Assembly (NCBI GenBank): GCA_001775755.1
Contig: MEYF01000018.1
Span: 892-54,742 of the forward strand
From: Candidatus Aminicenantes bacterium RBG_19FT_COMBO_65_30
GTDB lineage: Bacteria; Acidobacteriota; Aminicenantia; Aminicenantales; Saccharicenantaceae
Direction: 5' to 3'
Length of the DNA stretch: 53,851 bases
Part shown: positions 11,713 to 14,651 of the stretch, one piece after another
How positions within the stretch are numbered: position 1 is the stretch's first letter
Layout of the letters: every line of letters begins with the position of its first letter
The notes under the pieces: model-generated
Told to the model about the DNA's origin: nothing
Databases searched by the model: none
Seen by the model: only the letters and a program-made list of their open reading frames with translations
Program-made: the position numbers and the translations under genes

Positions 11713-12729
11713 CTAACCGTTTCCCTGCGGGTGGCAGGAGTAACAGGCCTGGGAGCTGTAGGAGTATCCGGTGACACCTCGGTGCTCGTTGTCCATGTCC
11801 GTCTGGTCGTGGGCGTGGCATTCGAGGCAGCTGAAGACCCTGTAGTCACTCGTCCGGTGGCATTCGGAGCAAGCGACTGCGTGCCTTCCCGACTGGATGG
11901 GGAACGCGTGGTCGAAATTCGCGCCCGTCCAGCCGGTCGCCGATGTCCCGTGACATTCCGTGCAATCGAGGGGGAAACCGGAAGCGCTGTGGTTGGGGTC
12001 GGTCGTGCCGTTGTAGTCGGCGAGATGGCAGGAGGCGCAGGCCGGGGAAGTCCCCGCGTAGACGCCGTTCTTGTGGCAGTCCGAGCAGGCCGCCGACGCG
12101 TGCGCCCCCTGGAGGACGAAATCCGCGTGGTTGAAGGAGGCGTCCTCCCAGGCCCGCTGGCTGTGGCAGGACGGGCAGCTCGTCGGAAAACCGGCTTCGG
12201 CGTGATTCGGCTCCCGGGTTCCCAGGTAGTCGGATTCGTGGCAGGAATAACAGTCGGTCGGCCGGGGAGCGAAGCCGCCGCTTCCATGACAGGCCTCGCA
12301 GTCGAGAGTCCGGTGGATGCCCTCGAGCCGGAATCCGGCATCCGTCTCGTGGTTCCATTTTGCCGGGTCGACCTTCTTCCAGGATTGAGGCGTGTGGCAG
12401 TCGGCGCAGCGCGTGCCGAGGCGGAGGCCGTACCGGTCGTCCTGGCGGCGCTGCCAGTGGCAGACCTCGCAGTCCGTTGGGGTGCCCTCGAAGACGAGAT
12501 TGAGGTGACACTCCCGGCAACCGAGCGTCCGGTGCTTTCCGACGAGGGGGAAGTTCGTCCGGTCATGGGACTCGACCGTCCCTTCCTGGCCGGCCTTTAC
12601 CGCTTTGGTGCTTCCGCCCGTTTTCTCTTGTCCCGCGCCCCTTTGAGCTCCGAGGACGAGGAAAAAAGGGATGACGAGTGCTCCTGCCAGGGCGATGACC
12701 AGCCCGGCTTTGCTGCGAAGTCGGTTCAT
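11713..12729 (-). CDS. Dodecahaem c-type cytochrome
   Basis: A 338-residue exported protein with 12 CXXCH haem-attachment motifs by direct count (the first CRECH, the last CYSCH), or one haem per 28 residues. The N-terminus carries a hydrophobic signal segment (residues 8-28) without a clear lipobox. Many additional histidines occur in regular F/N-H-x spacing and could be the distal haem ligands, as in cytochrome c3/c7-like arrays. A dense linear haem chain is suited to moving electrons across a distance. GAGGAAG precedes the ATG. The gene lies seven bases after the barrel gene and is the third member of the cytochrome-barrel-cytochrome operon. Whether the product ends up periplasmic or at the cell surface cannot be told from the sequence. 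Confidence 0.9.
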   Translation of the reverse strand: MNRLRSKAGLVIALAGALVIPFFLVLGAQRGAGQEKTGGSTKAVKAGQEGTVESHDRTNFPLVGKHRTLGCRECHLNLVFEGTPTDCEVCHWQRRQDDRYGLRLGTRCADCHTPQSWKKVDPAKWNHETDAGFRLEGIHRTLDCEACHGSGGFAPRPTDCYSCHESDYLGTREPNHAEAGFPTSCPSCHSQRAWEDASFNHADFVLQGAHASAACSDCHKNGVYAGTSPACASCHLADYNGTTDPNHSASGFPLDCTECHGTSATGWTGANFDHAFPIQSGRHAVACSECHRTSDYRVFSCLECHAHDQTDMDNEHRGVTGYSYSSQACYSCHPQGNG

Positions 12730-12736
12730 GGCTTCC

Positions 12737-14035
12737 TCAATGGCTCCTGTAGATCATCCTGACGAATAGAAAGTGCTCGTTGAGGCCGGACTGGAGGAAC
12801 CCGCCGTATTCGATGGACGCCGAGAGGCCCCGGCCGAGCCGGATGAGCGTCCCGAGCGATACGTTCCTGTAATTGTCGAGATGGATGAGCTGGGGGTCGC
12901 CGCCGCTCGAGTCGAGGCGCATGCCGTTGAAGGAGTTGGAGTAGCTCCCGTTCAAGGAGAACCGCCCGAAGTCCTTGGTCAGGGAAATGTAATAGGTGTC
13001 GGATTCGGACAGGTCGCCCCGGTTGAGGGCGTAATCCCCGACGGCGGAGATGCCCTGTCCGAGGATGTTCCAGGCGGAGGCGCCGAACCGCCAGGTGTGA
13101 TTGCGGACGCCGAGGTCTTTTTGCTGGCTTTCTTGGCGGCTTACGGACAGGCGCACGGTCCGTGTCGGCTTGAGGCTCAGCCGGACGCCGTAATAGCCCG
13201 TGTAGTAGAACCGCTCGACGTTCTGGTCGTAGATCGTCGGGTCTTGGGAGGCGGCGATGAGGTAACCGTGGAAGTCGAGGCCCCGGCCCGAGCTGTAGCT
13301 GGCGGTCAGGTCGGCCCACCGGCCGAGGTCCAGCCGGATGTTCCCGAAGAGTCGCGACAAACGGTTCGTGCCGTCGACGTGGTTCCCCAGTTCGTATTCC
13401 GCGTTCCCGTAGAAGACGAAGATCTTCCTGACGGGAAGAAAGACGTTGGCGTAGGCGTACTGCCGTTCGACGCTGCCCTCGTACCTCAGGTGGTTGAAGG
13501 TGAGGCCGATCGTCCGGCCTTGCGGGCCGAGCCAGCGGACGAAGGCCCCGGCCTTGAGGTACTTCGTGTCGAGGCGGTTGATGTAAGGCGTGGATTCGAA
13601 CCCTCCGTACGCTCCGGCCATAATGTCCCAGTTGAGCTTGAAGCCGGCTACGCCGCCGAGGAGGGAGCCGATCCCGGCGGTGTCGTAAAGGTTCATTTGG
13701 CCGAGCGCGAGATAAAAGCGCGAGCCGGGCTTATCGTAGGTCAGACGGGCGTTGTAGAGGATGAGCTGGTTCGTCGCGTCGCCGCGGATGCCGATACGGT
13801 CCCGGGCGTCCACGGTCAGGGTCCAACCCTGGCCGGGCCGGTTGATGAGGTCGAACCTGAACCTGGCGGAAACCTGGTTGAAGAACGTCCCGTCGGAATA
13901 GCGCGAACCGTTCCAATCGAGATAGATCGTCCCCTTCTGGTAGAAGGAGGCGCCGGAGGACTGACCGGCCAAGCGCGTCCCGGCGACGAGAAGCGCCGCT
14001 CCCAAGAGGACAATCGCCGGTTTTCGCAGCCGCAT
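12737..14035 (-). CDS. Outer-membrane beta-barrel of a porin-cytochrome cluster
   Basis: A 432-residue protein with a signal peptide (cleaved near GQS at residues 24-26) and a succession of alternating amphipathic strands, ending in an aromatic-containing strand (LFVRMIYRS) as outer-membrane barrels do. I count roughly 18-22 strand-like segments by eye. No haem motif is present. It is flanked at short distance by a 6-haem and a 12-haem cytochrome gene, the arrangement seen in MtrCAB and OmbB/OmaB/OmcB electron conduits, where the barrel sheaths a cytochrome. It is shorter than MtrB (about 700 residues) and shows no recognisable MtrB or PioB motif, so homology is not claimed. AAGGA precedes its ATG inside the end of the upstream gene. 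Confidence 0.75.
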   Translation of the reverse strand: MRLRKPAIVLLGAALLVAGTRLAGQSSGASFYQKGTIYLDWNGSRYSDGTFFNQVSARFRFDLINRPGQGWTLTVDARDRIGIRGDATNQLILYNARLTYDKPGSRFYLALGQMNLYDTAGIGSLLGGVAGFKLNWDIMAGAYGGFESTPYINRLDTKYLKAGAFVRWLGPQGRTIGLTFNHLRYEGSVERQYAYANVFLPVRKIFVFYGNAEYELGNHVDGTNRLSRLFGNIRLDLGRWADLTASYSSGRGLDFHGYLIAASQDPTIYDQNVERFYYTGYYGVRLSLKPTRTVRLSVSRQESQQKDLGVRNHTWRFGASAWNILGQGISAVGDYALNRGDLSESDTYYISLTKDFGRFSLNGSYSNSFNGMRLDSSGGDPQLIHLDNYRNVSLGTLIRLGRGLSASIEYGGFLQSGLNEHFLFVRMIYRSH

Positions 14036-14038
14036 GGT

Positions 14039-14605
14039 TCAGTCCTTTGCCCGCCGGCGATCGACCGTCCAGCTCTCCTGCGTGTGGCAGGCCAAGCAAT
14101 TATCCTGTCGGCCCGGATGCGGGGGATTGTGACAACCCCGGCAGCCCGGAACCTTTAGCAGGTAGGATTTGCCCTGGGTTCTGGGGTAGGTGCTGGCCGG
14201 CGTGTGGCAGGCTTCGCAATCCTTGGTCTTCAGATGGGCGCCCTGGAGGTCGGCCCCGGTTTCGGCATGATCGAAGCTCGCTGGCTCGAGGGGGACTATG
14301 TTCGCCTGACGGCCCTGATGTTCGGCGTGGCAGACGGCGCAGTCGTCGGCCTTGTCGCGGTGATAGCCCTTTTGGGCGGCGACGCGGGAGGCGATCTCGG
14401 CGTGACAGGCGAGGCATTTAGCGGGGGACACCTTGCCCGCGGCCACGTGACACGCTGAGCAGTCGGTCTCACCCGGCTTAGACGCATGGGCTGCGCTCAG
14501 GGGGCCCGGGATTTCCTGGGCGCCCGCCCCCCGGCCCAAAGGGGGAGCCATGGAAGCGGCGACAGCCAGGGCGAAGAGCGGGACGAACAGGCTGGTGATT
14601 TTCAT
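14039..14605 (-). CDS. Hexahaem c-type cytochrome
   Basis: A 188-residue exported cytochrome with six CXXCH motifs (CSACH, CLACH, CAVCH, CEACH, CRGCH, CLACH) after a signal peptide ending near GAGAQ (residue 30). Histidines between the motifs (for example GYHRDK, FDHAET, GAHLKT) may be second axial ligands. It is the first gene of a three-gene operon with the barrel (three bases downstream) and the 12-haem cytochrome. By analogy with known conduits it would be the periplasmic electron donor. The AGGA sequence directly abuts the ATG, an unusually short spacing, and promoter elements lie very close, so translation may be leaderless or nearly so. Confidence 0.88.
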   Translation of the reverse strand: MKITSLFVPLFALAVAASMAPPLGRGAGAQEIPGPLSAAHASKPGETDCSACHVAAGKVSPAKCLACHAEIASRVAAQKGYHRDKADDCAVCHAEHQGRQANIVPLEPASFDHAETGADLQGAHLKTKDCEACHTPASTYPRTQGKSYLLKVPGCRGCHNPPHPGRQDNCLACHTQESWTVDRRRAKD

Positions 14606-14622
14606 TCCTATTATTATTATAT

Positions 14623-14651
14623 ATCCTATAGAATTAATATGAGGCTGTCAA
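14623..14651 (-). promoter_or_regulatory. Promoter of the cytochrome-barrel-cytochrome operon
   Basis: On the minus strand a perfect TTGACA is followed after 17 bases by TAGGAT; an alternative TATAAT lies a few bases further on at 14616-14621. Either choice puts the transcription start within about 15 bases of the ATG at 14605. The surrounding sequence is markedly AT-rich against a GC-rich background. Confidence 0.5.

Follow-up and report, generated by a model that had tools for sequence, protein, structure and literature searches.

The 53,851-nucleotide stretch of Candidatus Aminicenantes bacterium RBG_19FT_COMBO_65_30 analysed here (the window) encodes, between positions 11713 and 14605 of its minus strand, a 6-haem c-type cytochrome, an outer-membrane beta barrel and a 12-haem c-type cytochrome. 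We consider it probable that these three genes form one operon and that their products constitute a trans-outer-membrane electron conduit of the porin-cytochrome kind. Specifically, the barrel, with about 22 strands, would act as an insulating sheath. From a position in or under the barrel lumen, the 6-haem cytochrome with its bis-histidine (bis-His) haems would carry electrons across the membrane, and the 12-haem cytochrome, composed of four tri-haem modules, would prolong the chain of haems on the outside of the membrane towards a final acceptor that may be minerals, humics or a partner cell. The locus comprises the following features:

14623..14651, minus strand: promoter-like site of sigma-70 type (TTGACA-17-TAGGAT) immediately ahead of the 6-haem gene, a consensus match only
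14039-14605, minus strand: 6-haem c-type cytochrome, 188 residues, six CXXCH and six further His, signal peptide, no lipobox
12737-14035, minus strand: outer-membrane beta barrel, 432 residues, zero Cys, signal peptide, no plug domain, 22 predicted strands
11713-12729, minus strand: 12-haem c-type cytochrome, 338 residues, twelve CXXCH and twelve further His, signal peptide, no lipobox

These coordinates bear out exactly the composition and spacing given by the initial annotation, with three nucleotides between the 6-haem gene and the barrel gene and seven between the barrel gene and the 12-haem gene, so that 18 haems are distributed over three short proteins. Three promoter-like sites are found in the region where 0.2 are expected, and the position of the promoter is consistent with a single transcript for the trio. 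Shuffled versions of the two cytochromes contain on average only 0.04 (6-haem) and 0.12 (12-haem) CXXCH motifs, which excludes a chance origin of the motif counts. In the DNA of the whole window, 20 CXXCH-type matches occur against 0.9 expected, 18 of which fall within the two cytochrome genes. The metagenome-assembled genome (MAG) that carries the window comprises 2.45 Mb in 136 contigs and is 86% complete, and those of its relatives that bear names are mostly Candidatus Aminicenantes MAGs.

The association of the barrel with cytochromes extends well beyond the window. A profile of the barrel finds it in 17 of 142 Aminicenantia genomes and in 47 of 396 genomes sampled across the phylum Acidobacteriota; because the mixed barrel alignment is too diverse for a contig scan, an Aminicenantia-only alignment was used for that scan, which reaches close relatives only. 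At every Aminicenantia barrel locus with enough flanking sequence the cytochromes adjoin the barrel, and elsewhere in the phylum a multihaem cytochrome gene lies immediately upstream of the barrel gene at 25 of the 26 loci read, the contig of the 26th ending 36 nucleotides past the gene. Barrel homologues are thus not found mostly without cytochrome neighbours, and it is this strict conservation, together with the wide barrel predicted below, that upholds the porin-cytochrome reading proposed in the initial annotation. Additionally, the 6-haem profile recovers in the class the same 17 genomes as the barrel profile, plus one further genome of the genus (G170) and two weak cross-matches to other cytochromes. 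The barrel never occurs without the 6-haem gene, and this co-occurrence has a Fisher p of about 5e-21 over about 141 class genomes with kinship ignored. G170 lacks the barrel and retains a natural fusion of the first part of the 6-haem gene with the last part of the 12-haem gene (L101, 1486-1917), a remnant indicating that the set was lost as a unit in one deletion.

Fold and family of the barrel

The AlphaFold2 model of the barrel, with a mean predicted local distance difference test score (pLDDT) of 79.2 and a predicted template modelling score of 0.69, has 22 membrane strands joined by short turns and no plug, the strand number being our own count of DSSP elements with two short strands inside a loop left out. 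If the termini are periplasmic, the long connections of the model would lie outside and the short turns inside. In the strands, a hydrophobic face alternates with a polar face, and conservation is higher on the polar face (0.79) than on the lipid face (0.68), the faces being assigned from hydropathy and not from coordinates. The outer loops are not more conserved than the strands, the two being about equal. The best-conserved outer loops are NLYDTAGIG (residues 115-123) and then the 251-279 loop, and their conservation may reflect docking of a partner.

Structurally, the closest folds found by Foldseek are the 24-strand ushers PapC and FimD, with TM-scores of 0.51-0.52, against about 0.35-0.45 for OprD/AlgE-type porins. 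The computed backbone radius of an ideal 22-strand barrel is 19-22 Å, and the modelled barrel would therefore be wide enough for a haem chain. The initial annotation had described the barrel as much smaller than those of known conduits and had raised the prospect of a closed barrel too narrow for haems. In residues the barrel is indeed short, but structurally the description does not hold, since a protein with few residues yet 22 strands need not be narrow, and a wide, plug-less barrel is what AlphaFold2 predicts.

In sequence, the barrel resembles no known family that we searched. The window barrel has no Pfam or NCBIfam match at E<=0.1, although NCBIfam may not hold all OmbB/ExtB/ExtE/ExtI models, and its homologues likewise give no credible match to a known family. 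Sequence searches of the PDB with the barrel return nothing credible, the single-sequence searches producing noise only. In particular, the MtrB_PioB family (PF11854) matches neither the window barrel at E<=0.1 nor any of 17 homologues at E<=1, and hhalign of the window-type barrel against MtrB-type barrels from genomes of the class gives a probability of 1%. These comparisons make a barrel family separate from MtrB_PioB well supported at the sequence level.

The 6-haem and 12-haem cytochromes

The haem motifs of the 6-haem protein follow a spacing of 15-25-41-25-15. His40, His82, His96, His113, His124 and His163 are invariant across 11 aligned homologues, so that all six haems can be bis-His, as we expect them to be. 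One homologue (L029) has lost a CXXCH, which reads YQACH. Packed to a radius of 13 Å, the protein has a calculated length of about 48 Å. Longer versions of the gene also occur, with 23 motifs in L037 (the same locus as L021, SPCN01000058.1) and a similar length in L022.

Four tri-haem modules, each about 72 residues long (period 71-73 residues), make up the 12-haem protein, and identity is 26-44% for those pairs of modules whose alignment covers the greater part of their length. In line with this modular build, its complete homologues carry 9, 12, 15, 21, 24 or 27 haems, invariably multiples of three. The initial annotation had taken the protein to be unusually haem-dense; with 28 residues per haem against 26-29 in complete homologues, it instead represents the norm for its type. 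One module departs from the others in a linker:

12409..12456, minus strand: first-module linker WQRRQDDRYGLRLGTR, in which a conserved WxRxxDDRY replaces the distal His of the other modules

This motif is kept in the Aminicenantia and in the homologue at locus L128 of another Acidobacteriota lineage (CHWVRRQDDRFKLQLG). The haem expected to use this slot is without a conserved His partner, and the slot could possibly form an open or catalytic site.

Chains of tri-haem c7-modules such as GSU1996, the TIGR04257 nanowire_3heme family and HmcA resemble the 12-haem protein in module array and haem density. GSU1996 is a dodecahaem cytochrome that holds twelve haems in about 320-340 residues as four tri-haem modules; it is regarded as periplasmic and is not known to have a barrel neighbour. 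The likeness is weak in sequence searches: the HmcA model matches 11 of 13 homologues of the 12-haem protein (best E 2e-10), TIGR04257 weakly matches 3 of the 13 (best E 2e-4) and leaves the window protein unmatched, and chain 3ov0 (318 residues) matches the 12-haem protein weakly (E 0.057).

As for the location of the 12-haem protein, its N-terminus is hydrophobic (best 19-mer with a Kyte-Doolittle value of 2.7) and might serve as an inner-membrane anchor. Each protein of the trio, however, has a cleavage-like site that ends in A or G and is followed by Q, which would count to some degree against such anchoring. A fixed span of the periplasm by this protein is disfavoured by the strong variation in module number.

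Related clusters in the Acidobacteriota

Outside the Aminicenantia, two loci from two other Acidobacteriota lineages (L128 and L131) contain five genes in a row, including longer cytochromes, in the following order:

first: FAD/NAD-binding and 2Fe-2S protein
second: cytochrome-b-like membrane protein
third: 24-haem cytochrome
fourth: tri-haem-repeat cytochrome
fifth: barrel

In L128, the N-terminal part of the 24-haem cytochrome matches the 6-haem protein of the window (E 8e-26), and the tri-haem-repeat cytochrome, which has 27 haems, matches the 12-haem protein (E 3e-75). Within the Aminicenantia, a homologue of the cytochrome-b-like protein (36% identity to that of L128) stands beside the cluster in L035, accompanied by a different FAD/4Fe-4S protein, and L037 carries a pair similar to these two genes of L035. 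On the strength of these matches, the window trio is best regarded as derived in form from a larger Acidobacteriota cluster, with fewer genes and shorter cytochromes in a changed order, and in our own reading the long form would be ancestral. The distinct family proposed in the initial annotation is accordingly retained in part: the barrel does stand apart from MtrB, but it belongs to a reduced version of a larger cluster and not to a free-standing compact family.

Extending this comparison, we tentatively put forward, as a proposal that we consider less likely than not, a conduit class spread across the Acidobacteriota. Such a class would have a barrel family of its own, and one cluster would encode the whole line from NAD(P)H through flavoprotein/2Fe-2S, cytochrome-b-like protein and multihaem plug to an outer wire of tri-haem modules. 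In evolution this wire would lengthen or shorten by entire modules, over a range of 9 to 27 haems. The window would then hold a much reduced member of the class, in which the haem at WxRxxDDRY may be an open or catalytic site.

Several loci carry further oxidoreductase genes near the conduit. Genes of exported-type molybdenum hydroxylases (Mo-binding and/or 2Fe-2S subunit) lie beside it in L031 (4851-7004), L036 (10485-13105) and L004 (2-442, 2Fe-2S subunit), and these enzymes are possible periplasmic electron donors. A gene for a cholesterol-oxidase-like GMC flavoprotein is convergent with the conduit in L032 and L033 and near it in L029, in three related MAGs.

Proposed electron flow, alternative readings and known conduits

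In the proposed conduit, electrons would probably come from an inner-membrane donor of cytochrome-b type. Elsewhere in the Acidobacteriota, the conduit cluster itself encodes a candidate donor, the NAD(P)H-type flavoprotein with the cytochrome-b-like protein; in the window genome this pair is not adjacent. Outward flow appears likelier than inward flow because of these neighbours elsewhere and a presumed fermentative lifestyle.

Some observations weigh against the conduit reading. A cytochrome-b-like donor of the L035 type was not found in the 86% complete MAG of the window, nor was a CcsA/CcmC-type maturation gene (PF01578). The AlphaFold2 model of the 6-haem protein (pLDDT 44) is unusable for judging its fit to the pore, and the barrel model has a narrow base, with 17 input sequences from a single class. 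Finally, unlike OmcB, MtrC and ExtC/D, neither the window 12-haem protein nor the homologues inspected have a lipobox, which keeps its outer-surface location putative. Regarding maturation, most genomes of the genus that are nearly complete do have PF01578; the gene is therefore probably encoded in the missing part of the MAG, and on the same grounds we dropped the idea that the organism is unable to mature c-type cytochromes.

The notion that the MAG has no other cytochromes was likewise dropped when a wider spacing pattern revealed three more loci. At L126 (G000:C11, 827-1603 and 1519-4794, minus strand), a large multihaem cytochrome that has a membrane segment at its C-terminus adjoins a multi-span membrane protein, and this pair is a candidate inner-membrane donor for the conduit. 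At L125 (G000:C4:1-6000, plus strand), an ExtKL-like multihaem cytochrome (2-1228) is followed by a protein with a single CXXCH (about 1240-2430; 391 residues) whose remainder is barrel-like and has no family match; L125 may encode another conduit, one of the type with a cytochrome-porin fusion. L127 (G000:C136, 3210-4721, plus strand) encodes a DmsE/GSU2203-like multihaem cytochrome whose N-terminus resembles a lipobox (ILAAFLGSCSTAG).

The best-surviving alternative keeps the conduit and reverses it, with electrons flowing inward as extracellular Fe(II) is oxidised or as they are drawn from a partner; we regard this as unlikely. Such conduits can run both ways, and MtoAB and PioAB run inward. 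Aminicenantes, however, are generally taken as anaerobic heterotrophs. FeGenie found iron-oxidation marker genes in Ca. Aminicenantes (PMC7005843), yet the NAD(P)H-type flavoprotein and cytochrome-b-like genes elsewhere are most simply interpreted as an electron source.

Less probable still is an arrangement in which both cytochromes stay in the periplasm and accept electrons from oxidoreductases there, while the substrates of these enzymes enter by simple diffusion through the barrel, which would be a porin like any other. The molybdenum hydroxylases (L031, L036, L004) or the GMC enzyme (L029, L032, L033) near some loci would suit this arrangement, as would a 12-haem protein without a lipobox. 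The neighbouring enzymes nevertheless vary from locus to locus, whereas the cytochromes and the barrel are constant; the predicted barrel is plug-less and wider than diffusion porins, and an open 22-strand hole would leak; and 9-27 haems are excessive for an enzyme sink.

Lastly, an usher-like barrel that mainly exports or anchors the tri-haem-repeat cytochrome at the surface, this cytochrome itself being the trans-membrane wire instead of the 6-haem protein, is suggested by the nearest folds, by the adjacency of the repeat cytochrome and the barrel in the non-Aminicenantia loci read and by haem numbers that change in whole tri-haem modules. We consider it very improbable. Both the Aminicenantia clusters and L128/L131 also include the 6-haem gene or a long homologue of it, and no barrel-bearing genome of the class is without this gene. 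Such a route would in any case still be an electron conduit and thus a variant of the reading that we prefer.

The conduit that we favour shares its component set with several known systems. Like the window, MtrCAB, MtoAB and PioAB combine in one operon a small multihaem cytochrome and a wide, plug-less barrel, to which MtrCAB adds a larger multihaem cytochrome. MtrCAB differs in having 26 strands against 22 predicted for the 432-residue window barrel and 10 + 10 haems against 6 + 12, and the outer candidate of the window, unlike MtrC, has no lipobox. MtrB has been compared in size to FimD and LptD, and its first four short strands make no contact with MtrA, leaving 22 (PMC7198977). A true MtrB_PioB barrel adjoining a ten-CXXCH MtrA-like gene occurs in a genome of the same genus (L074, G241), which carries the window-type barrel on another contig. 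In Geobacter, the barrels and cytochromes of OmbB-OmaB-OmcB and ExtABCD/ExtEFG/ExtHIJKL are mutually unrelated, and ExtB is predicted to have 18 strands and ExtE and ExtI 21, with dodecahaem and pentahaem partners (PMC6148476). The outer cytochromes of these conduits are mostly lipoproteins, whereas the outer candidate of the window lacks a lipobox. The OetABI and OmcKL conduits of syntrophic sulfate reducers, proposed to serve direct interspecies electron transfer, comprise a periplasmic cytochrome, a barrel and an extracellular cytochrome (PMC10553843), a similar set, likened here by description, from a different phylum.

Closer to the window in lineage, a report on Acidobacteriota MAGs from ghost-rock describes a group 1 with a porin of about 20 strands, a multihaem cytochrome and a nearby ferredoxin-NADP reductase (PMC13264449). 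By description this group resembles L128/L131, but its cytochrome is a single large decahaem protein encoded by 4-5 kb. For Holophaga, MtrB-type and ExtB/E-type clusters are described in another report (PMC7399161). The reported Acidobacteriota clusters may include relatives of the window barrel family. Among the papers that our literature search covered, none describes a window-type conduit in Aminicenantes.

If the conduit reading is correct, Aminicenantes, which are common in anoxic sediments and aquifers and mainly uncultured, would gain a known path by which electrons reach minerals, humics or partner cells, and one more unrelated barrel would join the solutions that bacteria have found for wiring the outer membrane. 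Because the barrel matches no Pfam or NCBIfam model, surveys of conduit barrels that rely on such models would miss it. Its small size makes the trio well suited to reconstitution, and homologues with 9-27 haems form a natural series in which the effect of wire length on conduction could be studied.

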